Assembly (NCBI GenBank): GCA_024734495.1 | Contig: JALMQS010000880.1 | Coordinates: 452,781-516,780 of the forward strand | Direction: 5' to 3' | Origin: Forficula auricularia | Lineage: Eukaryota > Arthropoda > Insecta > Dermaptera > Forficulidae | Length of the DNA: 64,000 nt | Part shown: one piece after another, positions 3,872 to 57,820 of the stretch | Numbering within the stretch: position 1 is the first letter of the stretch | How the letters are laid out: each line of letters opens with the position of its first letter | Program-made: the position numbers and the translations under genes | Notes under the pieces: model-generated | The model's database searches: none | Told to the model about the DNA's origin: nothing | What the model saw: only the letters and a program-made list of their open reading frames with translations

Positions 3872-5128
3872 AACTCTTGGGTTGAAAATGTTACCATAAT
3901 TATAAATAAACTTAATCAATCTTTCTGTCAATATTTCGCTGAAATAAAATGTGCTGGAGAAATTCAGCTTTATATTTCCCCCGAAAAGGTATTTTTATAA
4001 AAGCATTGTTTAATTATTTCATAAATATATAATTTAATTAATTATATATAATTTTAGCCAAATGATGCCCGTGAATATGGTCTTAAAATTCTTGTGAAAT
4101 TTCGGGACAATGAAATTCTTCAAGAACTCAATCGATTCACTCAATCAGGAGGAGAACGAGCCATTTCTACCGCAATATATATTATCGCAATGCAGTCTTC
4201 CCTAAAAGTTCCATTTGTTGCGGTTGATGAAATCAATCAAGTAGGTTCCAACTTACTATAAATATATATTAATTTATTTAAGCAACAAAACTAAATCAGA
4301 AATAAAGATCGAATTGTATTTTAATTAAAATTTACCATTTACCTATGAACTTATTTTCTTTAAAAAAGTTTAATACATAATCACAAGAGGGTGTTATCTA
4401 TTAAATCCAAGATGGAATAGATTATATTTTTTAATTATATGTCAGAAGGTTTGTTTTTATCTTCTCGGGAATTCAACCCGAGTGCCAAAATAAGCAATCC
4501 GAGCCAATCTGTGACATTATTAAAAATAATCCATTTCCCAGATCTAATAGGTGACACTCTCCTGTGATTTTCTTAGAAAATTTAAAATTTATTAAATTAG
4601 GGAACGAAGAAAAGGATTTTTATATTATATACAAAAGGATCAGCCGGGATCTTCGCATGTGCGCTGCGACGCCTTTATAAGAACCCCTCGACCAGTGATC
4701 CCCGAACCCAAGCTGATACTTAATGTCTATATGAATTTGGAATTTCATTTTTATTTAATCTTTTCCTCGTTCATTTTTCACAGCTGTGTAGTTGGCTTGA
4801 CTTTGGTTATATTTTAAAATTTATTTTTATCGGCAACTTGAATTCTTATAAATCTAATCTATTTTAACAGGGTATGGACGTAGACAACGAAAGACACGTG
4901 ATGAATCTTTTAGTAAAGATAGCCAGTGAGGGAACCACAGGCCAATATTTTCTACTTACACCTAAAGTAAGAATATTTAATCTACACTCCTTTTATCCTA
5001 TGATCGTTATATTAATCTATTTTATTTTGTAGCTAATTCCTTCAATCACTTATAATGGATTTGTCGATGTTATCATTATTCACAACGGAGCCATCGTTGG
5101 AAACTCTTCATTACTATTTACTAATTAA
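3872..5128 (+). CDS. SMC5: SMC5, C-terminal exons (partial, four exons)
   Basis: Four exons join in phase 0: 3872-3988, 4058-4240, 4871-4966 and 5033-5128 (stop TAA at 5126-5128). Each is bounded by AG and GT, for example 'ttttta|g' before 3872 and GTAGGT after 4240. Together they encode 163 residues matching the C-terminal head of SMC5, the ATPase partner of SMC6 in the DNA repair and chromosome-maintenance complex of the nucleus. Visible motifs: CAGE in exon 1, the ABC signature QSGGERAIST in exon 2, and the Walker B/D-loop VAVDEINQ-GMD split by the third intron, then QYFLLTPK. The hinge, coiled coils and N-terminal Walker A head are not seen and should lie upstream of the window. A possible poly(A) signal ATTAAA is at 5230. 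The intron before 4871 is 630 bp; the others are 66-69 bp. Confidence 0.92.
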
Positions 5129-5287
5129 TCTGAAAATATATTTTCTGTGATCTTATTAATTTATTTATTGTATTATTAAGAATATATATATTTATATATT
5201 AAGAATATGAACTATTTACGTATAAAATCATTAAAAAAAAATATTCGTTTTATGAAATTATAATGTATTTTATTTTTATATCTTTTT

Positions 5288-5522
5288 TACTTTATCCAAT
5301 GCAAAGCATGGGTAAAGTATTGTAATCGCTCTCGGGGCAAGCGTGGCTTCAAAGAGTCCTCAGGTAAAGACTACGGAACCCATGGACTCAATTAAAGTCA
5401 CAAATTGTAGTATTCAATTAGGTTGAATTTTAGCACGTGACGGTTTTGCCAAAAATTACAAGGGGTCTCGTCGAGAGGCCAAAAAGTGCGATTTTTTCAT
5501 TTAGTGCGTGCGGATGTATGTA
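5288..5522 (+). mobile_element. Helentron-like repeat, 5' part with terminal hairpin
   Basis: It opens with a hairpin at 5288-5319: TACTTTATCCAATGC, loop AAA, then GCATGGGTAAAGTA. The following ~200 bp are nearly identical to 21158-21395. The match stops where the provirus LTR starts at 5523, so the LTR apparently inserted into this copy. Confidence 0.65.
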
Positions 5523-6190
5523 AGTTATATTTTACGTGTCCGGACTCTTTAAAAAAAAGAAATCGTTTCTAGACAAACACGTAAAATATTTGAGGAATTT
5601 GGCAGAGCTGGGTTTGTTACGCGCTGGATAGTTTGAATTTAGATTTTAGACTTTTGACGGGTTTACTGGAAAATATAGTGGTACGGTTTTAAGTTTAAAA
5701 TGAAATAGAATGTTTATAGTCTTTTAAGATACGATTCCTTTTCTTTTATATATTTATTTATTTATTTGAAAATTAAATGTTTTACAATGTTTATTACACT
5801 TGGAGTTACAAAGTTAAATTGTCGTGAGAAAATATATATTAAGGGGACACACGCTTGTTGTAAGTTGAAAACATAAATTTTTATAACCGGTTTTAAAGTT
5901 CCGAAAAGTTAGTATAGTTACCGGGAGCTGCGCTAAGGTGATAGTGATGTAGTTTCTTCACGGGTTAACCGTTCGTGCCTGAGTCACTGTTTGGACTAGG
6001 ACCACCGAAATTTAGCTGGGGCCGAGGGGTGCACCTGTTAGGGTAGAGTCACCGGGCAGTATTTCCAAATGAGCGCTGAACTGCTTTGCCTAGCCGAGCG
6101 GCTGGCTTTTATACCTATTTTACTGTTGCTGTGTCAGCGAAAGTCGCTAGACACAAGGAGGGAAGAAGAGGGTAGTTAGAATATATAACT
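5523..6190 (-). repeat. 3' LTR of the errantivirus-like provirus
   Basis: The segment is bounded by short inverted repeats AGTTATAT (5523) and ATATAACT (to 6190), the AGTTA...TAACT style of gypsy-group LTRs. It lies directly downstream of a polypurine tract on the minus strand. On that strand a TATA box (TATAAAAG, complement of 6106-6113) is followed within about 40 bases by an initiator-like TCAGCGCTCATTT, which fits a U3/R promoter layout. The matching 5' LTR is not in the window. Confidence 0.7.
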
Positions 6191-6201
6191 CCTCCCCCCT
6201 T
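6191..6201 (-). other. Polypurine tract of the provirus
   Basis: On the minus strand this reads AAGGGGGGAGG, directly adjoining the LTR start at 6190 and overlapping the env stop codon. Plus-strand priming from such a tract is standard for LTR retroelements. Confidence 0.75.
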
Positions 6202-7894
6202 AAGATTGAGGTTCATCCGGAGAAATGGAATTTTCCGGCTGAGCCTCAACATTTGGGACCGGTAAGCTAGTGGTTTCAAGTTCAAATTTAGTTTCCTTTT
6301 TATTATTAGTTTTCCTTAACTTAGTAGGGAGTCGAAAATTATATTGGTTCCGATATTTATTTATGATATAGGCCACAAAGGCACATGTTACAATTAGTAA
6401 TATTATAATGATTAAAGTGTTTAAATAGTTTTTTACAGGGGTCGGATACCAGTTTATTTCACTTATTTCGCTCCCTTTTATGTTATTCACATCTATTTTA
6501 CTTAATGAGTGTATTATGGTAGCCTTATTACTTAATATATATTTAAAATCTTTGTTGGCTAGTAAAGGAATATTTAAAGAATAGTTGAAGTTTGAAACCA
6601 TTAACCTATTATTTAAGTAACAGTTATTTATGTTTTCAATTTTATACAGTCCTACTCTTAGGTATTTATGGGTGTCTCCGCATTTATACAGTAATACATT
6701 GTTTTGTTTAATATTTATAATAGTAGTATCTGTATTAGGAATTCTTATAATTACAGGATACTGGATTAGATCATTAAATTTACAATAATTGTTTTCTTTA
6801 TTTAACATTAAGTTATTTATGCAATTTGATGCTATTACATTGCTTGTTTTGCAAAAGAATTTATGATTAATATTAAAACAATAGTCGATTTTTACAATGC
6901 TACTGTTCACTACTATTAAATTTTGAAATGTTTCGTCTAATATAATTTGTTGATTTAATTTATTAGATACGGGAAGTGGAATGAACTGAACGATAGTTAA
7001 ATTTGATGGTTTGTAATTAGCAATTTCTAAAACGATGTCGATGTACCCATAATGAACTCGGCAGATTGGTTTAATGAATAAAGTGGCTTCCCAATAATTT
7101 TCAAAATTAATTTCTAAATTGTTTATTTTAAATAATTTTATCAATTCCTTCATTGAGATGATACTCTCGTGAAGTATGTTTAAATTACAGAAAGTGAGTG
7201 AATTTTCAATGTTTTCTAAAATATTGGTGAACGAATTTGATAATAAGGTTAGTTGGGCCAAATTTTGAATAAGTAGAGTTTCAGAGTTTTTCGCAACTTC
7301 GTGTTTCATAGCCGAAAGACTGCTGGCCAAATTTCGTTCATTTATTTGTATATTCTCTAATTGGTGGTTAATTTTGTTGATTAACTCATCGTGAGTTCGA
7401 GAAATTATTTGATTTTGACTTTGAAGTTTTCTCTGATTCTGGGAGAGTTGGTTGAGAAGATGATCGTATTTGTCACGGTCTTCATCATCCATTGTCCCAG
7501 TGATAAATTTTAATACCGAACCTAAACCATTCACTAACCCTCTTTTGTTTCGTTTATGGGTAGCCAGGTTATTTATTTTTTCATTTTGTGTTTCTAGAGT
7601 GAAGTTAAGTAATCGAAAATAAGTATTATGTTCTTTATTGAATTTGGAACCGGGGGGAATGATAGCTATTAATTTGTTTACGGCATTATTAATGTCGAAA
7701 TGCGTTTGGTGGGTAAAATTTAGGTTGTAATAGTAATGGATATAATAGTTATCTGAAAAAAGAAAGGGAGTTTTGAATTTTGTCAAGAGGAAGCCGGCGT
7801 TGTCAGTTATGTCTTCGAGGTTGTCTGCGTGTGTTGACCCAATTGCCAAGGCTAAGGTCAAGCTGAAAAAGTCAGTCATTTGGAGAGTAGACAA
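6200..7894 (-). CDS. env: Errantivirus-like envelope glycoprotein (env), intact ORF
   Basis: A 564-residue ORF without internal stops. Features by residue: a hydrophobic N-terminal signal at about 9-23; a furin-like site RNKR at 115-118; right after it a glycine-rich hydrophobic fusion-peptide-like stretch starting GLVNGLGSV; a heptad-rich, Asn/Gln-rich segment at about 140-260; scattered cysteines at about 278-425; a transmembrane helix at about 491-511; and a basic-then-acidic cytoplasmic tail. This is the layout of gypsy/errantivirus and baculovirus F-type class I fusion proteins, which act at the membrane in cell entry (family knowledge). It overlaps the end of the upstream pol ORF by 23 bases in another frame, and in the family is usually made from a spliced message. 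Several N-X-S/T glycosylation sites are present. It is the best preserved gene of the provirus. Confidence 0.88.
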   Translation of the reverse strand: MSTLQMTDFFSLTLALAIGSTHADNLEDITDNAGFLLTKFKTPFLFSDNYYIHYYYNLNFTHQTHFDINNAVNKLIAIIPPGSKFNKEHNTYFRLLNFTLETQNEKINNLATHKRNKRGLVNGLGSVLKFITGTMDDEDRDKYDHLLNQLSQNQRKLQSQNQIISRTHDELINKINHQLENIQINERNLASSLSAMKHEVAKNSETLLIQNLAQLTLLSNSFTNILENIENSLTFCNLNILHESIISMKELIKLFKINNLEINFENYWEATLFIKPICRVHYGYIDIVLEIANYKPSNLTIVQFIPLPVSNKLNQQIILDETFQNLIVVNSSIVKIDYCFNINHKFFCKTSNVIASNCINNLMLNKENNYCKFNDLIQYPVIIRIPNTDTTIINIKQNNVLLYKCGDTHKYLRVGLYKIENINNCYLNNRLMVSNFNYSLNIPLLANKDFKYILSNKATIIHSLSKIDVNNIKGSEISEINWYPTPVKNYLNTLIIIILLIVTCAFVAYIINKYRNQYNFRLPTKLRKTNNKKETKFELETTSLPVPNVEAQPENSISPDEPQS

Positions 7895-8885
7895 GGAATT
7901 TAATTTTTGTGTTTCTAAAGATAGTATTAATAAGTTGCTCTACGTCGCACCAATTTAGTTTGTCAAGTCCACAACCAATTTTTGGGATGGCTAATTTAGT
8001 AATATTATTAGTCATGCAGTGTCTTTTCAATTTAATTAGGCATGATTTTAGATCTTCTAACTTTGGTTTATCGTGGCTAACTTGTTTAGTTACAAGGTAA
8101 TAGGTAAAATTTTTATTTTGTTTGAGGATTCCAATACCACCTACTTCAATTTTTTGTTTTCGTAATATTTCTATATTATTAAACTTTTGCCTAAAAGTTA
8201 CCGCTATTCCTGCACTCATTTTCAGGTCGGCTGCGACACAGTGAGCTAGGGAATAGTTAGGGGGTGCGTTAAATAAGTTGCCTCGTTTATACGTAATAAT
8301 TTTGTCTTGTTCTGAAGTTAAAATGTTAGTCGAATGAATGGGGGCAGTTTTTTCGGGAGTTCTTAATTTTCGAGGTCTTTTGATGTTCGAAAGATGAATT
8401 TTTCTCAGTTTTGTTTTCGGAGTGCGTGGAACAATTTTGCCTGTTTTTAATTTAGTGTCCACTACTTTCAAAGTTTCATGGTCGTACCGATTTTTCGTTT
8501 TAATACATTTTTGTTTGTTCTTTACGAATACTTTTTCTGGGATTTCTGGTAATTTTTCGCGTTTTTCGTTGAAAGTGGAAATTACTTTCGCTTTGCCGGT
8601 GTCTAAAGTTTTATGAATATTTTCATACATTAATTTGGAATTTTCTTTATGCACTTGACAGTAATCGGAAATAAGGGGTTCGTTGGAGAGAATTTCTAGC
8701 GGGGTATCATCATCGATGTGTCCGCTTTTGATTTCGAAAGGGGTGAGTTTGGTAGCCGAATGTTTTGTATTGTTATAAGCTATTAAAGCGTATAAGACTT
8801 TAGTTGCTATAGGTTGATTTTTAAAAGTTCTCTCTGTTATTGAACAGTCGAATATGTTCAATAAGAGTAGAGTGAAAACGCTCAC
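7872..8885 (-). CDS. Pol C-terminus: integrase tail fused to a TARG1/OARD1-like macrodomain
   Basis: A 337-residue open frame; the first Met is only where the frame opens after a frameshift, not a true start. Residues about 20-180 are the end of a gypsy-type integrase (ALIAYNNTKHSATKLTPFE is its signature) plus a basic linker. Residues about 195-337 form a macrodomain of the TARG1/OARD1 type: AHCVAADLKMSAGIAV (glycine loop region), YYLVTK with Lys267, and IGCGLD with Asp308. Human TARG1 removes ADP-ribose from acidic residues through a Lys and an Asp in these same two motifs, so an active hydrolase is plausible (inference). The ORF stops 23 bases inside env. I see no stop between integrase tail and macrodomain, so the fusion is real as sequenced. 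It could counter host ADP-ribosylation, as macrodomains of some RNA viruses do. Confidence 0.85.
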   Translation of the reverse strand: MSVFTLLLLNIFDCSITERTFKNQPIATKVLYALIAYNNTKHSATKLTPFEIKSGHIDDDTPLEILSNEPLISDYCQVHKENSKLMYENIHKTLDTGKAKVISTFNEKREKLPEIPEKVFVKNKQKCIKTKNRYDHETLKVVDTKLKTGKIVPRTPKTKLRKIHLSNIKRPRKLRTPEKTAPIHSTNILTSEQDKIITYKRGNLFNAPPNYSLAHCVAADLKMSAGIAVTFRQKFNNIEILRKQKIEVGGIGILKQNKNFTYYLVTKQVSHDKPKLEDLKSCLIKLKRHCMTNNITKLAIPKIGCGLDKLNWCDVEQLINTIFRNTKIKFLVYSPND

Positions 8886-9431
8886 AATTCCGTTAGAAGA
8901 TGGGTTTTGTGGGCAAGTGAATCTAATATCAATTTTGTGGAGTTTGAGGAACTCTTGGAGGGGTTATTTCTTGAACTCTCCACCGTTATCGAAATGATTA
9001 ATTTAGGTATATTATTTAGCGAAAAGTGACCTAGTTTGTATCGACGATTTCGGTCAGTTTGAAGTGATTTTAGTGGATAAGCTTGGGCTTGAATTTTGAA
9101 AATGAGTCCACTGTTATTTAGAAATTTCTGGTTTTCCATCTTGAGGCTGTCCAGATGTATAATTTCGAACGGGCGTTTTGCCGTCGGACTAAATTTAATT
9201 CTAGTTTCGGGGGTGTCTATCGTATTTAAGATTTTTGACATATATATCGCAGTTATTCCCGTATTCTGTTAGATATCCTCCTTCCCGGCCTTGGGCGCAA
9301 AAGCATTTATCTTCCAATTTCTCGTGGGTTTCCGATATCCCACGATGATTTGTTTTACCGGAGATGGTAATTTTCCATTGTCTCGGTCGCTTTCCTCAGG
9401 ATCCTCGATATCTTTCAATAGTTTATTTGTT
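8886..9431 (-). pseudogene. Integrase zinc-binding region and catalytic core, frameshifted
   Basis: Both segments of an errantivirus-type integrase are visible but spread over several frames. The 119-codon ORF 8882-9241 carries FEIIHLDSLKMENQKF (first catalytic Asp region) and AQAYPLKSLQT. A different frame near 8960-9000 carries the second Asp region, and a third carries the remains of the His/Cys zinc-binding motif at about 9240-9400. At least three small indels are needed, one close to 8880 at the join with the downstream ORF. The breaks sit at short homopolymers, so either decay or consensus error could explain them. Confidence 0.75.
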
Positions 9432-9899
9432 TTAAAGATTTTTAGACCTGTGAAGTGCGTAAAGGATAATTGGTTCTAATTTTTCTAGAACGCGTGCGTC
9501 CGAGTAAATATAATAGTTACACGAAGGCACGGTATATTGTTTTAAGAAAGTTATTATATCGGATTCGAAATTTTGTTCGGATACGTTAACAATGAATCTT
9601 TGAAGTTTTTTGTTGAATAATTTTTTAATTTGAATTGAAGTAGTCGGAAGTGAAATAATTTTGAGATGAATTTGGTTCTGGAAGTAATTTAGAGGTTTAT
9701 TGGTTAATTTTATGGTGGAGTTTGACGGAAGATTTTGTGCTAATTGTTGGTCTAATTCGTCTAGAAGGTCGGGGTCGATTGATACTGGTGACTCATAATT
9801 TTGATTAAGGAGTTCAATGGGATCTAGGGTTGAAGTTGATGGTGAGGCCGTGGGTGGATTTTGTGTTTGTAGTTCTCGTTCCAAGTTTTGTATTTCCAT
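9432..9899 (-). CDS. Pol segment between RNase H and integrase
   Basis: A 155-codon open frame rich in Asn, Gln, Ser and Thr in its first third (ELDQQLAQNLPSNS), then a mixed alpha/beta-like part (NYYIYSDARVLEKLEPI). It lies exactly between the RNase H remnant and the integrase, so I assign it to the pol linker by position. On its own I do not recognise a domain. The chosen Met is the first in the open frame and need not be used. Confidence 0.5.
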   Translation of the reverse strand: MEIQNLERELQTQNPPTASPSTSTLDPIELLNQNYESPVSIDPDLLDELDQQLAQNLPSNSTIKLTNKPLNYFQNQIHLKIISLPTTSIQIKKLFNKKLQRFIVNVSEQNFESDIITFLKQYTVPSCNYYIYSDARVLEKLEPIILYALHRSKNL

Positions 9900-9970
9900 A
9901 GGATCTATTGGATTTGTTAAATTTTGAGGATTATTAATCCACTCGTAGAGATCAATGGTTTTCCGAACAT

Positions 9971-10355
9971 TTACATTGATTTCTGCGGGGTTCCGAATAA
10001 AGAATCGGCTACGTAATTTGTCGAACCTTTCTTATAATTGATGTCGAAGTCATACTCACTTAGTTTTGTTCTCCATCTAATGAATTTTGAGTTGGGATCT
10101 TTCATATTAAACAACCACTGGAGAGGTTTTGCTGGTCGCTGAGATATGTCGAATTTTCTGCCGAAAATGTACGGTCTGCAAGTACTTCTCGTGGCGTGGG
10201 CCATGGCCCCAGGAAGCTCCTTCTCTATCGTACTATAGTTAATTTCTGCTGGGTTTTTAATGTCCGACTCGCGTATGCGATAGGTTTGTCTTGACCCATT
10301 GGTCCTTGTGACACTGCTCCTATAGCATAATCGAAGCGTCTGTCACGTGATATTA
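9971..10355 (-). pseudogene. RNase H domain of pol, fragmentary
   Basis: Two overlapping pieces in different frames: 10225-10355 encodes [20 protein letters not shown], and 9971-10204 encodes GRKFDIS...[10 protein letters not shown] and [13 protein letters not shown]. These are hallmarks of gypsy-type RNase H with the connection after reverse transcriptase. The reverse transcriptase itself is absent: immediately upstream (about 10356) the sequence switches to a duplicated env block. Confidence 0.75.
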
Positions 10356-11350
10356 AACTTTTATCAGTTCCTTCATCGAGATGATACTCTCGTGTGAGTA
10401 TGTTTAAATTACAGAAAGTGAGTGAATTTTCAATGTTTTCTAAAATATTGGTGAACGAATTTGATAATAAGGTTAGTTGGGCCAAATTTTGAATAAGTAG
10501 AGTTTCAGAGTTTCTCGCAACTTCGAAGTTTCATAGCCGAAAGACATGCTGGCAACAAATTGCGTCCATTTGTCTGAAAGTATTCTCTAATTGGTGAGTT
10601 AGTTTGTATGATTAACTCACTCGTGAAAGTCTCGAGAAATTATTTGGATTTTGACTTTGAAGTTTTCTCTGATTCTGGGAGAGTTGGTTGAGAAGATTGA
10701 TCGCATTTGTCACGGTCTTCAATTTCCATCTCATTGTCCCAAGAGAGCGGGCTTTAATACCGAACTCTGAACCATCTCACTAACCTCTCTTTTGTTTCGT
10801 TTATGGGTAGCCAGGTTATTTATTTTTTCATTTTGTGTTTCTAGAGTGAAGCTAAGTAATCGAAAATAAGTGCATTATGTTCTTTTTATTGAATTTGGAA
10901 CCAGGGGGAATGATAGCTTATTAATTTGTTTACGGCATTATTAATAAATGCAATGCGTTTGGTGGAGTAAAAATTAGCTTGTAATAGTAATGAGATATAG
11001 TAGTCATCTGAAAAAGAAAGGGAGTTTTGAATTTTGTCAAGAGAAGCCGGCGTTGTCAGTTATGTCTCCGAGGTTGTCTGCGTGTGTTGACCCAATTGCC
11101 GGCAGCCAAGGTCAAGCTGAAAAGTCAGTCATTTGGAGAGTAGACAAGGAATTTAATTTTTGTGTTTCTAAAGATAGTGAGTTTAATAAGCTGCTTCCAC
11201 GTCTTGCATCCAGTCTTAGTAAGTCACTGTCCACAACCGAATTTTTGGGATGGCTAATTTAGTAATATTATTAGTCATGCAGTGTCTTTTCAATTTTAAT
11301 TAGGCATGATTTTAGATCTTCTAACTTTGGTTTATCGTGGCTAACTTGTT
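10356..11350 (-). pseudogene. Duplicated, error-rich copy of the macrodomain end and env 5' half
   Basis: This block is a second copy of about 7130-8098 (end of the macrodomain plus the first ~250 env codons) in the same orientation. It carries many scattered one- to few-base insertions and deletions that destroy the frame. It sits where reverse transcriptase should be and ends at the assembly gap. The density of small indels with little base substitution is typical of unpolished long-read sequence, so a misassembly is at least as likely as a tandem rearrangement. Confidence 0.75.
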
Positions 11351-11450
11351 NNNNNNNNNNNNNNNNNNNNNNNNNNNNNNNNNNNNNNNNNNNNNNNNNN
11401 NNNNNNNNNNNNNNNNNNNNNNNNNNNNNNNNNNNNNNNNNNNNNNNNNN
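11351..11450. other. Assembly gap (100 N)
   Basis: A run of exactly 100 N, a conventional placeholder of unknown true length, so linkage of the two sides is only as good as the scaffolding. Confidence 0.99.
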
Positions 11451-11454
11451 TGGT

Positions 11455-11750
11455 TACGATTACGATAACGGTTTCTTTCGGGATTTCTGTTGAGCAAAAT
11501 CTTCTATTATCCTTAAAGTCAATTTTTTGAAGGATATCCGTTTCTATGCACATAATTGACCAATTACTCAGTCGTTCTTGTAACATTGTTATTCGCAATT
11601 CATTTTTTATTCTCTTTAAGCTGCGAAAATGACCGCTCTCCACTACAATTGGTAACCATTAGGCAGGCAAAGGAATATTCTTGTAGCAATTTCTACAGTT
11701 TGGCAAAGGTTTCTTCCAATTCATCTGATTTTAAGAAGCGCGTGTTATGT
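11455..11750 (-). pseudogene. hAT transposase C-terminal dimerisation region, frameshifted
   Basis: On the minus strand, frames between 11700 and 11470 carry MVTNCSGERSFSQLK, then RIKNELRITMLQERLSN and SIMCIETDIL. This is the C-terminal dimerisation block typical of hAT transposases and their domesticated relatives (52-kDa repressor / THAP12-like). A one-base shift separates the first two motifs near 11617-11622 and another occurs near 11510. The rest of the gene would lie in or beyond the gap or is lost. Confidence 0.75.
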
Positions 11751-11901
11751 ACAGGTTGAGATATTTAAATCCGCTGATTGCTTTGCTATGTTTTTTAAAT
11801 ATTGGCTTAAATGAAAGCATTCTTTAATTTTTACCAAGCCAGTACATCTTTTTGTATTTTAAGTTAAATTCATTTCTTTTTTTTAATTATGTGCTCTTTA
11901 A

Positions 11902-12199
11902 TAAAGATAAGAGTAAATAAATTTGATATGTAATATTCATTTACTATGAGTTAAGGATTCTTGGTCACTTGTTTCACATTAAAATTAAAAAAATTAAAAG
12001 ATGTAAAATATTTTTCAATATATATATTTCAGGCTATCAACCCATCTTCAGGAAGTACAGAAAATAGGTTGATGGCTGAAATATATATGTTGAAAACATT
12101 TACATCTTTTAACTTTTTGATTTTAATGTGAAATAGGTGACCAACTCCTAGCTCATAGAATATTACATATAATATTTATTTACTCTTATCTTTATGTAT
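11902..12199. repeat. Foldback repeat of hammerhead-like family B
   Basis: Two arms of about 130-150 bp (11902-12052 and 12064-12199) are inverted copies of each other, centred near 12058. Each arm contains a 'ttcaggctatcaacccatc' type block that on the other strand resembles a CTGAAGA...GAAATATA hammerhead-like core. Parts recur at 1.44, 20.5, 23.1, 37.9 and 39.2 kb. Confidence 0.65.
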
Positions 12200-12325
12200 A
12201 GTAATAGTTGACATATCTTCTATAATAAATTTATATAAATTATTATAGTTAACTGAAGACATAACCTGAGAACTGATGTAATAGTTCAAATATATCTACA
12301 TGAATTTATATAAATTATTATTTTT

Positions 12326-12650
12326 GCAACGAAATTTTCTCTGGAGAGAGACGGGCTGGTAGAAATTTTAATTGAATGTAATGGAAGGCAGCCCAGAGGA
12401 AAAAAAATGTTTTTCTATGCCTTTGTTAAAAATGAAAAAAGTTTTTGAATACTACTGTGGAGAGAAGAAGGAAACATTTTATTTGTTTCATTCATTGACC
12501 CTTTGAAACCCTGAAGAAGGAGGGAAAAATCCTCCAAAACGTCGGTTTGAAAGGAAAGGAGGAAGGATTCCAATAAATTACACCTTATTTGATATGTGCT
12601 AATTTTTTCTTTCCTCACTACCTCTGGGCTGCCTTCCATTACATTCAATT
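12326..12650 (+). repeat. Repeat family A, copy 1 (TIRs, hammerhead-like motif inside)
   Basis: Perfect 30-bp inverted repeats at 12370-12399 and 12621-12650 contain GGAAGGCAGCCCAGAGG. The conserved leftward extension 'ctctggagagagacggGctggtag' is shared with the copy at 23201. The interior holds the hammerhead-like segment at 12505-12546. No ORF is credible; the block is non-coding. Confidence 0.7.
12505..12546 (+). ncRNA. Hammerhead-like motif, family A copy 1 (core mutated)
   Basis: The layout is AAACC, CTGAAGA, a GGAGG/CCTCC hairpin, AAAACGTC, GGTTT. Flanks AAACC and GGTTT would form helix I, and ACGT is self-complementary, as in hammerheads that cleave as dimers. Here the conserved G before AAA is replaced by A, so this copy should be inactive. 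Confidence 0.35.
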
Positions 12651-13412
12651 ATAAATTATTATATTGAAAAGAAAAATTGATTTTTGATTGTTAATATAAT
12701 AAAAATAATCTTATAACGTTTTATTTAGAAACCAGACGTTGTTACAAGATTGTTTTATAAAGATTTGTATTTTTTTTAATTATTATAGTTATAGTATAGC
12801 TCGACAATCCAATGCAAATACACGGTCGTGAAAAAAAAATTGATTTACTTACTAATTTTCTCTTGTGAACATCGATCACCACAGAAGAGAGAAAGATCCT
12901 AATGTTTTTTCTTTTATATAAATTATTTTTTCTTGTCTCTTCATCTCTTCTGATGCGAAGGTCAGGTAAATCTGAAACAAAATATTTTGTTAATCCTAAA
13001 TATTTAGATATATTTATCAATTGCTCTTTTAAAATATTAGCCTTTTGTCTTATCTATGAAAAGAAAAAGACAACACATAAAGTTCTGCCATATTTTTAAA
13101 TCTTTACTCATTGGTAGGCTCGATTGCGGCCGTTTCGGTTCTTTTGAAGGCTCCTTTGTCCCTTTCGGATAACAAATAAACGGCTCGCAACGACTGCCAA
13201 CATTAACAAGCCAGGCCAAAACTGTACGACGGACATTACAGTGATTTATACTATCCTCTGGTGGCTGCGAATAAATCTCCAGCCCTCCAATCACCCTCTC
13301 CCTTTGCCTCTCCCTTTATCTTGTAGTCTTTGTCTTTGCGCAGTAAAAATTTTTTCAAGTAAATATTGTCTTAATTATACACTATAGTTATGTTTGTAAA
13401 TTGTATGTATAA
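12651..13412. other. Non-coding stretch with a GC-richer patch at 13110-13340
   Basis: Mostly AT-rich. At 13110-13340 composition becomes balanced ('gattgcggccgtttcggttcttttg') without matching any repeat family I recognise here. The minus-strand ORF across it (85 codons) has no recognisable domain. It could be a promoter, an exon or an old transposon piece. Confidence 0.25.
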
Positions 13413-13915
13413 ATGTTGCATGTTTCAAGCATTACTCATAAGTTTAAAATAAATTATACTTTAAAAATACTAAAAAAACACGCATTTGTCAGTAATGAAC
13501 ATGGTCACATTCTTGGGGGAGAAAATCAGCCCTGTTGCATCCCCTGTGATCAATTAGTCAATATAACTCATATACTGTTCGAATGTCCTTTATATTGAAA
13601 ATGACATTTTTTCAAGGGATATTTTAGAAGGGGAAGATTATATAAGTAACATAAAAATTATCTCTCAGAGATAGACCTATTAAAGTACATTTGAAGGGTG
13701 CTTATCCAAGGCTTTCAGACATATATTTCTATTCCTGTTTTGTTTTGTTTTTTGTTTTTTATATTTGTTGTATTTATTTATTTACCTATTTATCTATTAG
13801 CTATCTAATAATCTATTAATCTTGAGCTGTTTAGCTAAAACAAGAATAGTGGCGTCAATGGCCTCGTAGTCGACACGCCAATAATAATTAAAAAATAATA
13901 ATAAAAAGTACAAAA
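13413..13915 (+). mobile_element. 3' end of a non-LTR retrotransposon (LINE)
   Basis: The ORF at 13413-13598 ends with HGHILGGENQP then CCIPCDQLVNITHILFECPLY, the Cys/His-bearing C-terminal region that follows RNase H in jockey/R1-type LINEs. The homologous reading continues in a second frame (ENDIFSRDILEGEDYISN) to about 13670. The 3' UTR ends in an (AAT)n tail at about 13890-13915, a usual LINE terminus. It is 5'-truncated and frameshifted. Confidence 0.65.
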
Positions 13916-17514: not shown

Positions 17515-18096
17515 TTATTCAGGAATTTTAATCATTGTAACTATAGGTTTATGGTAACTGAAATAAGAAACATAAGTTTGAGACTTGATATCCTCTAAAT
17601 ATCTGGAAAATATTGCGTCAATGGTGGTCCCATATTTTTTTGTGGATTCTTGTGGATCATTATTTATTTTCAAATTCAATTTTTCCGAAAGAAAAGTTGT
17701 CAACCGCTCTGAATTTTTATCAGTGAAGTTGATGTTGAAATCGCCAGCCAAGATAGGTGGAAATTTATTACCATTTGTACCAAGTATTTTCGACCCTTCT
17801 TCAGTGTACTCCAGTAAAGTGCGATGAATAAAATGCTCTACCTCGTCCAATTTTGGATTCGGAGAAATGTAAATTGCTACCATGACTATGTGTAGGCCAT
17901 TTCTAAGTTTGCATAAGCACGCACAAATATCTCCAACAAATGGGCGCCTAACATGAACATCGCTAACGTGTGCAATATTTATTTCAATATTCGGAGTCAT
18001 AATATTAGTAACATTATTATTATTTTGGTAAATAGCTACCCCACCTTTTGGAACAGTATCTCGTTTGAATTGAACAATACAATTAAATGAGGTGTT
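17515..18096 (-). CDS. Endonuclease/exonuclease/phosphatase (EEP) domain of a Helentron- or LINE-type element, partial
   Basis: The frame is open from 18096 to the stop at 17515. An upstream Met at 18000 exists, but conserved-looking sequence (PKGGVAIYQ) precedes it, so the true protein is longer. Motifs of the EEP nuclease fold: GGVAIY, LAGDFNINF (metal/catalytic GDFN), GTTIDAIFSR, and a final SYHKPI carrying the catalytic His. The C-terminal two thirds of the fold are intact and the protein ends soon after the last motif, suggesting a domain at the end of a polyprotein. EEP domains sit at the C-terminus of Helentron Rep/helicase proteins and at the N-terminus of LINE ORF2; ending right after the domain favours the former. 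A stop at 18097-18099 cuts off the rest. Confidence 0.7.
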   Translation of the reverse strand, partial: NTSFNCIVQFKRDTVPKGGVAIYQNNNNVTNIMTPNIEINIAHVSDVHVRRPFVGDICACLCKLRNGLHIVMVAIYISPNPKLDEVEHFIHRTLLEYTEEGSKILGTNGNKFPPILAGDFNINFTDKNSERLTTFLSEKLNLKINNDPQESTKKYGTTIDAIFSRYLEDIKSQTYVSYFSYHKPIVTMIKIPE

Positions 18097-21116: not shown

Positions 21117-21795
21117 TTTGAAGTGAAACTTCTTTAGCGACATATCTGTTTAATTTTTACTTTATCCAATGCAAAGCATGGGTAAAGTATTGTAATCGCT
21201 CTCGGGGCAAGCGTGGCTTCAAAGGGTCCTCAGGTAAAAACTACGGAACCCATGGACTCAATTAAAGTCACAAATTGTAGTATTCAATTAGGTTGAATTT
21301 TAGCACGTGACGGTTTTGCCAAAAATTACAAGGGGTCTCGTCGAGAGGCCAAAAAGTGCGATTTTTTCATTTAGTGCGTGCGGATGGATGGATGTATGTA
21401 TGTTATCGTTTTTTTGGCCCACGATTTTTTCCACACCGTTGCACCGATTGAAATGAAATTAAAAACCTAGCATTCTTTTAACAAAATGAAGCGCTGATTA
21501 GTTTTTGGTACATATCGGTCCACAAACATTAGTACTTTATTTCAGTACTTTTTTAGTTTTTTCTAAATATCTTGAAAATGACTTAACCAATTTTGATGAA
21601 ATTTAATATCCTAATTAAGTACCTTGGGGACCACAAAAAAGGTTAAATAAAGTTTTTAGTAAAATTATATTTTAAAGTACTTTACTCTAGAACATATTAA
21701 TATTTCAAATGAATTTGGATAAAGTTTAGCAACGATCCGTTGCAGTTTATTTTGTTACAGAAACGAGGAAATGACTCAATAGAGGGGAAATAATT
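21117..21795 (+). mobile_element. Helitron-type repeat interrupted by a Helentron-like insertion
   Basis: The uninterrupted sequence at 54148-54258 matches 21117-21155 on the left and 21750-21795 on the right. The 600 bp in between are therefore an insertion, listed separately. The target spot is a T/A-rich 'aattatt'. Confidence 0.65.
21158..21743 (+). mobile_element. Helentron-like non-autonomous element, probably complete
   Basis: It starts with the hairpin TACTTTATCCAATGC / GCATGGGTAAAGTA (loop AAA; 21158-21189) and ends with a small hairpin GCAACG-ATC-CGTTGC (21729-21743). The first ~235 bp are shared with 5288-5518. The body has the 'ccgattgaaatgaaatt' phrase common in Helitron-class elements. 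Its borders are supported by the empty site at 54148-54258. Assignment to Helentrons rather than another class is inference from the hairpins and T-rich target. Confidence 0.6.
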
Positions 21796-23165: not shown

Positions 23166-23200
23166 AATAATTATTTTCCAAAATATATTTTTACTTTTTT

Positions 23201-23447
23201 GCAACAAATTTTCTCTGGAGAGAGACGGACTGGTAGAAATTTTAATTGAAAGTAATGGAAGGCAGCCCAGAGGCATTTTTGTTTCATTCATTGACCCTTT
23301 GAAACCCTGAAGAAGGAGGAAAAATCCAAACCGAAACGTCGGTTTGAAGGGAAAGGGAGGAAGGATTCCAATAAATTACACCTTATTTTATATGTGTTAA
23401 TTTTTTCTTTCCTCACTACCTCTGGGCTGCCTTCCATTACTTTCAAA
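23201..23447 (+). repeat. Repeat family A, copy 2
   Basis: It shares the start 'gcaacaaattttctctggagagagacgg' with copy 1, the GGAAGGCAGCCCAGAGG inverted repeats, and the hammerhead-like segment at 23302-23345 (AAACC, CTGAAGA, imperfect hairpin, GAAACGTC, GGTTT). Relative to copy 1 it lacks about 95 bp between the left TIR and the 'tttgtttcattc' word. Confidence 0.65.
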
Positions 23448-24318
23448 TATATTTTTACTTTTTTCTTTTATTAAACGCACCAACACTAGACTCTCTAATA
23501 AATAGAATCTAGTATGTCTTTATAGGAAGCCCGGGCTAATGTCCGGCTATAATCTAACCCCTACAGCAATTTACACACACTCATATACACATTTATATAA
23601 TCACATACATAAAATAACAATAATCACATAGGATCTAACTAAATGGGCTTTATTATTACTGTAGAAGGGGCGGGGGTTCACCCCCTTCGCTCATAGGGGT
23701 GAAGTAACACACTTATTTGTTCTTTATATATATATATTTATTTACAAAAAGGGGGTGGATACATTTTCGTGTCTAGGGGTCATCGTCAAACGTCATAATA
23801 CACATCATCTTAATATTAACGTATCATCTTAAGCACCACTGGCTTTCAACTATATCAAATCGACAAGCATGTCTTAACCATCACTCGTTTTTCAACCAAC
23901 TGCCTGCAGTTGCAACTAACGTTCCTTCAGCACACATATACATACACATACACATAAGTGGGGTGAGGGTGTCGGCAGCTGACAGCCCTTGGACACAAGT
24001 TGTCATAATAATATTTATTACATGCTTTTAGCCTGAACATAAAGATCTTCGGGACAATACCCGGCCAAGAAGAAAGAGAGCGACCTCCCACCATACAAGG
24101 GCAGGAAGTCAGCCACACATTTGCTAAACATGTGATCTTAAACAGAAATCAATAAAATTACTAAATTAAACACTTAATTTCCCACATTACTCATATATAA
24201 AATAAATAAATAAATAAAAGAGAAAAGATTTTTCTAAATTGATTGTTGCACTAGCCACCTGTGACAGATGCACTAAAAATGGGACTGAATTTTCATTTAA
24301 TCTCAATATAAAATTAAA

Positions 24319-35931: not shown

Positions 35932-35971
35932 ATCTAGAATGTAGATTCTAGAGCTGTGGTTCCCAACATGT

Positions 35972-36649
35972 TGTCTAATTTCTAGGCGCGAAAATAGAGA
36001 TTTCCCTGATATTCACTTCGATTCGAATACCCTGAAAATGTGTGACAGCCTATCCATTTTGGGCGTCTCTGTCGCATCTGACCTGTCTTGGAATGAACAC
36101 ATCTCCTATGTGGCGAAATCTCCAGCAAGGAAGATTGGCTTCTTATTCAGGTCCAAGCGATTTTACAAACCCCCACAACTTCTCACCATCTACAAGGCCC
36201 AAATCCGCCCCTGTCTCGAATACGGCTCTCATCTGTGGAGAGGAGCCTCAAAATATTCTCTTGCTACCCTTGATGCAATTCAGAAACGAGCCGTCAGCCT
36301 AATTGACGATTCTACCCTCACCGACTCCCTCGACTCGCTGGCTCATCGAAGAGATGTCTCTGCCCTTTCCCTTTTCTATAGATACTATCACGGCAGGTGC
36401 TCTGATGAGATAAAATCAATAATTCCCCCCAAAGCATGCTTTGCACGCAGCACACGTTTTGCCGACTCCCAACACTCTTTTGCGGTCAAATTGGAAAAGT
36501 GCCGGACCACTTCATGCGCGAATACATATATCCCCATGACTTCAAGGAACTGGAACTCTCTCCCAGCCTCTATCTTTCCCAGCACCTATGATCTTCAAAC
36601 CTTCAAAACCAGGGTGCATAGACACCTACGTCTACACCCTCTCACTTAA
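35972..36649 (+). pseudogene. C-terminal part of a jockey-type LINE reverse transcriptase, 5'-truncated
   Basis: The frame is open from 35972; the Met at 36038 is internal. Motifs: LGVSVASDLSWNEHI, RKIGFLFRSKRF, YKAQIRPCLEYGSHLWRGA, AHRRDVSALSLFYRYYHGRCS and NSLPASIFP. These form the 'thumb/connection' and end region of jockey/CR1-type ORF2. The catalytic palm (FADD) is absent because of 5' truncation, usual for LINE insertions. The stop is at 36649 and the surviving part has no shifts, so the insertion seems young. Confidence 0.85.
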
Positions 36650-49439: not shown

Positions 49440-49695
49440 TAAGAAAGGGAGGAAAAAAAAATCTTTTTCTATTCCTTTGCTAAAAAAGAAGTTTTGAACA
49501 CTACTGTGGAGAGAAGAAGGAAACATTTTGTTTCATTCATTGACCCTTTGAAACCCTGAAGAAGGAGGGAAGAATCCTCCGAAACGTCGGTTTGAAAGGA
49601 AAGGAGGAAGGATTCCAATTAATTACACCTTATTTGATATGTGTTAATTTTTTCTTTCCTCACTACCCCTGGGCTGCCTTCCATTAAATTCAAAT
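49440..49695 (+). repeat. Repeat family A, copy 3
   Basis: It shares the interior 'ctactgtggagagaagaagg', 'attgaccctttgaaaccctgaagaagg' and the right inverted repeat 'ctgggctgccttccatta' with copies at 12.3 and 23.2 kb. The left TIR is degraded ('gggaggaaaa'). Confidence 0.65.
49551..49593 (+). ncRNA. Hammerhead-like motif, family A copy 3 (best preserved)
   Basis: Order: AAACC (helix I), CTGAAGA (core), A, GGAGG-loop-CCTCC (helix II), GAA (core), ACGT (self-complementary helix III half), C (cleavage position), GGTTT (helix I partner). All invariant core bases I know are present. One extra A stands between the CTGAAGA box and helix II, which could impair activity. Dimer-type hammerheads with short helix III are known in Penelope-like elements and retrozymes. 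Confidence 0.45.
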
Positions 49696-50091
49696 AAAAA
49701 AAAAACACTTCATGAAACAGCTCAATGCGAAATTCCAGATTAGAACAGTATAGTTAGGTTGAGAGAATTAGCTAAAAATCTCAAATGCACCAGCTGCAGA
49801 AGTTTTTTAGATATGGAAAAATTGAGTGATTTTGGTGAGACGTTGCCAAGTCGCCATCTCTCACTTGCCATGCCATGAGAGAAAAAATGAAAACCATCAA
49901 AATTACCTAACTTTTTACATTTTTCATACAAAACGAATACCTCTTGATACAATTATTTCAACAGAAAAATATTTGTTATATCTTCAGTTCATGATTCTCA
50001 GTTTTTCAAAATAATTTCAAGAAAATTACGATTGTTGTTTAATGAAACAGTCGCTTTCATATCAATCGGAATAGGGTTCGCGTGTTTTTTT

Positions 50092-56202: not shown

Positions 56203-56850
56203 CATCATCATCATCATCATCATCATTGAGTATACAGTCCTAAGACTGGTTTGATGCAACAATCCGTCTCCACTCGACTCTGTCCCCCGCCAGCTGTTTG
56301 ACCTCTCTAAATGTCTGGCATCCCATATCCCCAATTATTTGGTTGAAATATTCTAATCTGGGTCTTCCCCTTCCCCTTTTCTTTCCCACCTCCCCCTCCA
56401 AGATATCCCTAAGCAGTCCCCTATGTCTCAGTGTGTGCCCCATCATCTGACCTCTTCTCTTCTTCAGACTCTTCCACAAGGTTCTTCTTTCTCCGATTCT
56501 TCCAAGAACTTCTTCATTTGTAATTTTATTCATCCATTTGATATTCATCATTCTTCTGTAGCACCACATTTCGAAAGCCTCTAATCTCTTTCTCTCCGCT
56601 TTTCTAATTGTCCAGGTTTCACACCCGTACATGGCTATGCTCCATACATATGTCTTCAATAGCAACTTCCTGTTTTCTAAGCTGATTGAGGAGGAGCATA
56701 GTAGTTTTTGTTTTGAATTAAACCCCATTTTTGCTTGGGCAATTCTTGATTTAATTTCGTTTTCGCTCCTCACATCCCATGTTATTTTACTTCCTAGGTA
56801 GCGGAATTCCTTAACTCCTTCTAGGTTTTCTTGGTTATCATGCAAATGAC
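56203..56850 (-). mobile_element. 5'-truncated RTE-like LINE with intact C-terminal ORF
   Basis: The minus ORF 56240-56845 (201 codons) is open and carries FRYLGSKITWDVRSENEIKS, WSIAMYGCETWTIRKAERKR, FEMWCYRRMMNI and GRGRPRLEY, the C-terminal region of RTE/craniofacial-type LINE reverse transcriptases. The palm with the catalytic Asp pair is lost by 5' truncation near 56850. The 3' UTR ('gcatcaaaccagtcttagg') runs into a (TGA)n microsatellite (56203-56227), the usual RTE tail. It sits directly against the MITE at 55840-56160. Confidence 0.85.
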
Positions 56851-57820
56851 AATTTCATCATTGGATAATGTATTTATTTTGTTTTTAAACTACAATAATT
56901 TCCTGGTAAATTAGGATAATTAAATTAATATTCCCAAGAAATGATAATTTAGGTTATGTTGACTTTTCCGCTTCTTAAAAAAAAGTTGGCTGAATGCAAA
57001 CATTAAATAAATTAATAACAGATATTTCATCATGTTTCAACAGGAATTTGCTAACCCTTATACCCATATTTCAACAAACTTATTAGCAAAGGATTTTTTT
57101 AATTTTTTTATTTCGATTAAGTGTCTCATTTGTTGTTTGGCGTTGTGCTTTGAACTGAATCAGATGTTGACGATTCCAAATGATCCGCCTTTCCTCGAAG
57201 CGCTTTTCGTATTCGTCACGGAGATTTTTTCTTCTTGACATTAAATAACATAAGATGGAATGCTTCGCAACTAATCAAGAAGTCGAGAGTTCAGTTAATT
57301 ATAAACACCAACGACATTAATTTGATTTTAAAATAACTTCCTATTAATACATGACTATTAAACTATTTTTGAATTATTTCCATTTTTTTTTTTTTTTTTT
57401 TTTTTTTTTATTGAAGATAAATTCACTATTTTTCTTTTTTATGATGAGTGATGTTAAGCTCTTCATTTTAGATTTATTTACAAAACTGATCATTTATTAA
57501 ATTCTAATCTTTACATATAAACAATCGTGAATTGATTTATCTCTGTGATTTTTTTTTCTGTCAAATAAATTTTACCATCCTGTGAAATTTTTATTCTTGT
57601 GTAGAAAATTAAAATCCCAATGAACTTAAACAAGTAGCCCCTGAAATTTCTGTCTTTATTAAACAATCTAAAAAACCGATTAAAGAATAATTAAGTATTT
57701 ATTTGCTTTTTATACATGTTACGTTTTAATGATGATTGAATAAAGTGGTTAGTATAGCAGTTTGATTTAATAAATAGATCGTTAAATTAAAATTAAAACA
57801 CCCGAAAAAGCAAGCCATTG

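Follow-up and report, generated by a model that had tools for sequence, protein, structure and literature searches.

The locus described here raises the question of why the Pol polyprotein of a gypsy-type retroelement should end in a macrodomain of the type of TARG1/OARD1 (C6orf130), the human terminal ADP-ribose glycohydrolase. The element lies on the minus strand of a stretch of 64,000 nucleotides from the earwig Forficula auricularia (assembly GCA_024734495.1, contig JALMQS010000880.1, positions 452,781 to 516,780), which is called the window in the following and to which all coordinates refer. Our reading, to which we give a probability of about 0.45 as a whole, is that the window holds a gypsy retroelement of errantivirus-like type with an env gene, that its pol has captured a TARG1-type macrodomain as its last domain, and that this domain would be an ADP-ribosylhydrolase carried with the integration machinery and erasing ADP-ribose added by the host; its activity, packaging, substrate and benefit are predictions from sequence.

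The initial annotation of this DNA had claimed a TARG1-type macrodomain with both catalytic residues kept and fused to a gypsy-type pol, and all parts of this claim have been borne out. Pfam Macro scored above its cutoff both in the window frame and in P0014, a related protein described below, and the window domain has a macro fold closest to TARG1. The fusion is seen in an open frame as well as in P0014, and the lysine and the aspartate of the GCGLD motif were located by alignment, as follows.

7872..8963, minus strand: open frame of 363 codons with the 3' part of pol (integrase tail) and the macrodomain, stop codon TGA at 7872-7874
7884..8312, minus strand: TARG1/OARD1-type macrodomain, residues 218-360 of the 363-codon frame
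8085..8087, minus strand: catalytic-type lysine codon, in the alignment column of TARG1 K84
7962..7964, minus strand: catalytic-type aspartate codon of GCGLD, in the alignment column that we take to be TARG1 D125

TARG1 is a stand-alone host enzyme, whereas the domain found here is part of a retroelement Pol. According to sections of PMC8501950 and PMC11102865, TARG1 strips ADP-ribose from Asp and Glu and, via K84, from thymidine of single-stranded DNA, and K84 is described in the former as required. The bacterial antitoxin macrodomain DarG, which takes ADP-ribose off DNA, is more distant (about 22-27% identity; 60.3 bits with the NCBIfam DarG model against a curated cutoff of 250) and differs in being the operon partner of a toxin outside retroelements.

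Since an independent record holds the same junction within one protein, the integrase-macrodomain junction is real. This record, of 5492 bases and from a source other than the window, encodes P0014, a protein of 1222 residues with reverse transcriptase (146-309), RNase H (398-501), integrase zinc finger (718-774), integrase core (790-881) and macrodomain (1066-1222), the last of which differs from that of the window at 2 of 157 residues. The remaining pol pieces of the window, and a second partial stretch, are the following.

8313..8963, minus strand: 3' part of integrase and its tail
8966..9455, minus strand: 5' part of integrase, with patches out of frame and in-frame stops
about 9455-8319, minus strand: integrase as a whole
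9432..10031, minus strand: RNase H-integrase linker piece of pol, 199 codons, without Pfam match
10359..11350, minus strand: second partial stretch (5' part of env and 3' part of macrodomain) in the same orientation, abutting a gap of 100 N

Most pol blocks of the window are nearly identical to P0014 and a few are garbled. The 3' part of integrase departs from it in a block near 8813-8903 and, to a lesser extent, near 8360-8543, and the linker piece has 28-30 of 30 residues identical per block across the first 180 aligned residues. Because of the garbled blocks and 11 in-frame stops at 9434-8966, the window copy of pol is broken as assembled, with the macrodomain end intact. Decay with age was considered as the cause of the broken frames and set aside, since sharp patches amid nearly identical blocks and an excess of extra bases in the second partial stretch favour uncorrected read errors, though they do not prove them. 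A misjoin near the gap (11351-11450) might have created the junction itself, and the broken patches of pol would fit this, as would the second partial stretch beside the gap, which repeats 7136-8086 at 90.8% (44 extra bases, 3 missing bases and 45 mismatches) and is probably a low-quality piece of assembly. For the junction, however, this explanation is refuted by P0014 and is extremely improbable, so the artefact that the initial annotation had warned of does not apply.

The element runs, on the minus strand, through an RNase H piece, linker, integrase, macrodomain, env-type open reading frame (ORF) and polypurine stretch to a probable 3' long terminal repeat (LTR). The parts outside integrase and macrodomain are the following.

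9971..10342, minus strand: RNase H fragment (RT_RNaseH, 1.3e-9)
6200..7879, minus strand: env-type ORF, 559 codons from ATG, with its start codon in the terminal part of the macrodomain frame
6191..6201, minus strand: polypurine stretch, directly 3' of the env stop

From the order of integrase, macrodomain (8312-7884) and env (7879-6200), it follows that the macrodomain occupies the integrase-env interval; with the env ATG at 7877-7879 and the pol stop at 7872-7874, pol and env share 8 bases. The env-type ORF shows a cleavage-type RNKR motif (residue 110) and, at residue 488, a run of hydrophobic residues, and had no match to an env family in Pfam and NCBIfam; its naming therefore rests on position after pol and on these motifs, and it is a putative env. 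Among gypsy-type domains, RNase H was found in the window, and RVT_1, RNase H, H2C2 and rve in P0014. The element, with P0014 for the reverse transcriptase, has reverse transcriptase, RNase H, integrase and a polypurine stretch, and a putative env after pol, as do env-carrying errantivirus/gypsy elements, and differs from them in the macrodomain between integrase and env. The 3' LTR probably starts at about 6190, judging from the polypurine stretch. Self-comparison of 5001-13500 recognised no second LTR, and no 5' half of the element (reverse transcriptase core, gag and 5' LTR) was recognised in the window. Near the expected 3' LTR region, about 250 bases at 5284-5534 recur at 21154-21405 in the same orientation with 97% identity, and this repeat could be an LTR remnant or another repeat.

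The fusion is not confined to this locus. A second protein search with the window domain gave 25 proteins and 209 candidates, and five of the matches were retroelement proteins (P0014, P0017, P0034, P0035 and P0036). P0017 has reverse transcriptase, RNase H, a macrodomain (690-829), a degenerate second macrodomain (about 863-1009) and integrase; its tandem macrodomains span 682-833 and 863-1009, the first with the catalytic pair, while in the second both the Lys and the GCG loop are gone. In P0035 (Rhynchophorus ferrugineus), reverse transcriptase and RNase H are followed by the macrodomain (593-739), a linker and an integrase zinc finger at the protein end; in P0036 the macrodomain (38-169) stands before protease, reverse transcriptase, RNase H and integrase; and in the fragment P0034, RNase H and integrase precede the macrodomain (574-711) and a CCCH-like finger. 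Three Pol positions are thus occupied, namely the RNase H-integrase interval, before protease and after integrase, and the pairwise identity of these macrodomains is 40-53%. Because Pfam Macro was below its cutoff in P0034 and P0035 and unlisted at 0.01 for P0017 and P0036, these four were assigned by alignment and by phmmer, in which the window domain as query gave E 6.7e-38 to 1.2e-27. A macrodomain hidden generally in errantivirus RNase H-integrase linkers was considered and rejected: the linker of P0017 is a degenerate macrodomain, but those of P0014 and P0035 match each other without a macrodomain match.

When the P0034 domain served as query, 171 proteins were found. Among the best 120 of the 171, many carry integrase or gag domains according to record annotation; 113 are from the longhorn beetles Molorchus minor or Aromia moschata, and the others are P0034, P0038, P0044, P0055, P0058 (Harmonia axyridis), P0059 and P0100 (Callosobruchus maculatus); P0044, labelled in its record as the fungus Erysiphe pulchra, is taken as a candidate insect contamination. 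The CCCH finger of P0034 scored 26.5, below the Pfam cutoff of 31, and the Cys-Cys-Cys-His tail is present in all nine P0034-type tails compared. In Molorchus minor and Aromia moschata the P0034-type proteins are high-copy, and public records list them as host genes, under C3H1-type or cleavage factor names. The initial annotation had allowed for a single chance capture, and this is refuted by the recurrence of the domain in other gypsy-type pols, that is, in the five proteins above and the P0034-type copies.

Conservation of the catalytic pair was examined in 158 aligned domains (157 from 151 proteins and human TARG1), 153 of which keep both Lys and Asp; those that do not are P0017_2, P0023_2, P0024_2, P0029_2 and P0141. 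For a non-redundant set, rows with less than 80% identity were kept and second copies were dropped except P0017_2 and P0015_2, while P0141 (Asp lost) was removed as redundant. Lys and Asp are invariant in 13 of 13 retroelement domains of this set, a count which, like the tree, leaves P0017_2 (Lys lost) outside. The 13 domains have a mean pairwise identity of 0.48 and do not vary in 22 of their 143 full columns; by simple arithmetic, the chance that two chosen columns are both invariant is about 0.02.

While an element is reverse transcribed and integrated, single strands, ends and gaps lie open, and enzymes of the poly(ADP-ribose) polymerase (PARP) type act on such structures or are triggered by them. 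Made within Pol, the macrodomain would be packed alongside reverse transcriptase and integrase and would enter the next cell and nucleus together with them. There it would act as an ADP-ribosylhydrolase through Lys and Asp on ADP-ribose placed by host PARP-type enzymes on the element's own complex, possibly on acidic residues of element proteins or on single-stranded or terminal DNA of the complementary DNA (cDNA) and integration gaps. We favour removal from the element's own complex over a cell-wide role because of the substrates of TARG1 and the DNA exposed during reverse transcription and integration. Several points weigh against this reading: the macrodomain is less identical than the integrase in 35 of 36 pairs among nine P0034-type proteins, the domain of P0036 is at the opposite end of Pol, remote from integrase, and insects are said in part of PMC10221186 to lack most vertebrate PARPs. 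On the other hand, an insect ADP-ribosylation worth erasing is suggested by the related domains that insect viruses carry.

These viral relatives bear on a rather unlikely alternative, the idea of the initial annotation, namely that the domain acts in trans and, like the macrodomains of RNA viruses, erases host antiviral or anti-transposon ADP-ribose marks throughout the cell. Among viral structures, VP8 of Kadipiro virus, a seadornavirus (insect-borne reovirus), matches best, with 50% identity and 456 residues, followed by other insect and invertebrate virus proteins; these insect RNA viruses differ from the present element in being double-stranded RNA (dsRNA) or plus-strand RNA viruses without reverse transcription. 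The highest identity after P0014 was that of P0006 (57% over 84% of the query), in which a dsRNA-binding domain is coupled with the same macrodomain. P0006 was read at first as a host gene, and this reading was dropped; since it has 456 residues like Kadipiro VP8, a dsRNA-binding domain and a contig of 1520 bases, we infer that it is probably a viral protein from a segment of a Kadipiro-like insect reovirus and a candidate for counter-defence. A survey (PMC9503650) links viral macro domains, in the part concerned, to hosts with ADP-ribosylation-based immunity. Against cell-wide action stand a dose limited to the virion and a domain locked within Pol, the lack of any host pathway identified in this analysis, and the reported loss of macrodomain catalysis in insect-specific alphaviruses. 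It is also made less secure by statements in parts of the literature (PMC10221186 among the sources) that insects or mosquitoes lack most antiviral PARPs; both reports speak against a mere repetition of what happens in vertebrates. The domain was further found in insect proteins of unknown kind from aphids, locusts, beetles, a sawfly, thrips and a spittlebug. In IMG/VR, a scan for the window domain led to 3 pattern matches but to no relative, and a profile scan gave 109 pattern matches and 89 relatives, 80 of which were kept; these are uncultivated viral contigs and uninformative on retroelements.

In P0014 and the P0034 type, the C-terminal site behind integrase would suit a domain that recognises ADP-ribosylated chromatin or DNA breaks and directs integration to them, much as chromoviruses have a chromodomain at the end of their integrase (described in part of PMC6338049), and certain macrodomains are sensors only, according to section 3.4.1 of PMC9503650. 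This is improbable, because a domain that only binds would not have to preserve the catalytic Lys and Asp, which are invariant in the 13 domains, and the domain of P0036 is N-terminal, before the protease. We put at a similarly low level the view that template switching once linked pol to an mRNA of host or viral origin, which has since been a passenger without function. The faster evolution of the macrodomain than of the integrase is what such a passenger would predict, and P0002, the closest integrase relative, has no visible macrodomain; but the domain recurs in at least five arrangements across several lineages, and its frame is intact with the catalytic pair kept at 48% mean identity.

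How often the domain was captured was examined with trees. In a macrodomain tree of 30 rows, 13 of which are retroelement domains, the retroelement label needs three changes, two of them forced by the starred branches, and one-change trees made up 0% of 200 bootstrap trees. The approximately unbiased (AU) test did not reject a single clade of retroelement macrodomains (p 0.244), nor pairs of retroelement domains as clades (p 0.127-0.215). The integrase tree (15 rows) joins P0014 with P0002 (97/99), in which no macrodomain was seen, and one clade of macrodomain-bearing elements was likewise not rejected (p 0.0905). P0014 and P0035 are 68% identical in reverse transcriptase-RNase H, while their macrodomains are 44% identical and at different positions. 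Because of domain placement and trees, repeated capture is favoured; it is not proven, since the AU tests do not reject one clade, and one capture followed by moves is possible. The tree leaves both the source (hosts or viruses) and the number of captures unsettled. A macrodomain was found in none of the closest integrase relatives (P0002-P0005 and P0013), whose contigs are short or of unstated length, so that a contig end may hide the domain; the earlier statement that classical errantivirus pol ends with integrase thus agrees with all five relatives as far as visible, but contig ends may explain this agreement. A wider proposal, which we hold tentatively and at less than even odds, is that insect Ty3/gypsy elements may have taken up TARG1-type macrodomains time and again, as a recurrent module at three Pol positions, pointing to an undescribed host ADP-ribosylation of retroelement complexes or cDNA.

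The initial annotation knew of no described example in such elements. This stands for Ty3/gypsy Pol, for which no description of a macrodomain was found in the literature searched, most subscription papers and preprints being outside its scope and a description elsewhere being possible. It does not stand for retroviruses at large, since fish epsilon-like retroviruses carry macro domain ORFs (Basta et al. 2009, as cited in a section of the review PMC4977317). These endogenous retroviruses resemble the present case in having a retrovirus-borne macro domain, but theirs are additional ORFs in vertebrates, whereas here the domain is fused into Ty3/gypsy Pol. Retrotransposons carry accessory domains such as chromodomains and, in insects, virus-derived helicases (PMC6338049), likewise extra domains in the polyprotein and a precedent for the capture of a virus-type domain by insect LTR elements; the macro domain is unmentioned in that paper. 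A survey of viral nicotinamide adenine dinucleotide (NAD+)/ADP-ribose systems does not name Metaviridae or errantiviruses, and macrodomain and ADP-ribose terms are absent from a paper of 2026 that deals with env-carrying gypsy elements of insects.

Elsewhere in the window, a repeat family at 12310-12655, 23183-23451 and 49449-49700 shares stretches of 91-94% identity. ORFs at 17515-18096 (minus strand), 35945-36649 (plus strand) and 56240-56854 (minus strand) resemble, as judged by eye, pieces of the long interspersed nuclear element type (endonuclease/reverse transcriptase tails).

Should the domain prove active, the replication protein of insect retroelements would include an ADP-ribose eraser of its own. 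Macrodomain-bearing elements and their macrodomain-free relatives would then be material for comparison, and restriction of reverse transcription or integration by ADP-ribosylation of protein or DNA would become directly testable in insects, which are thought to have few antiviral PARPs.
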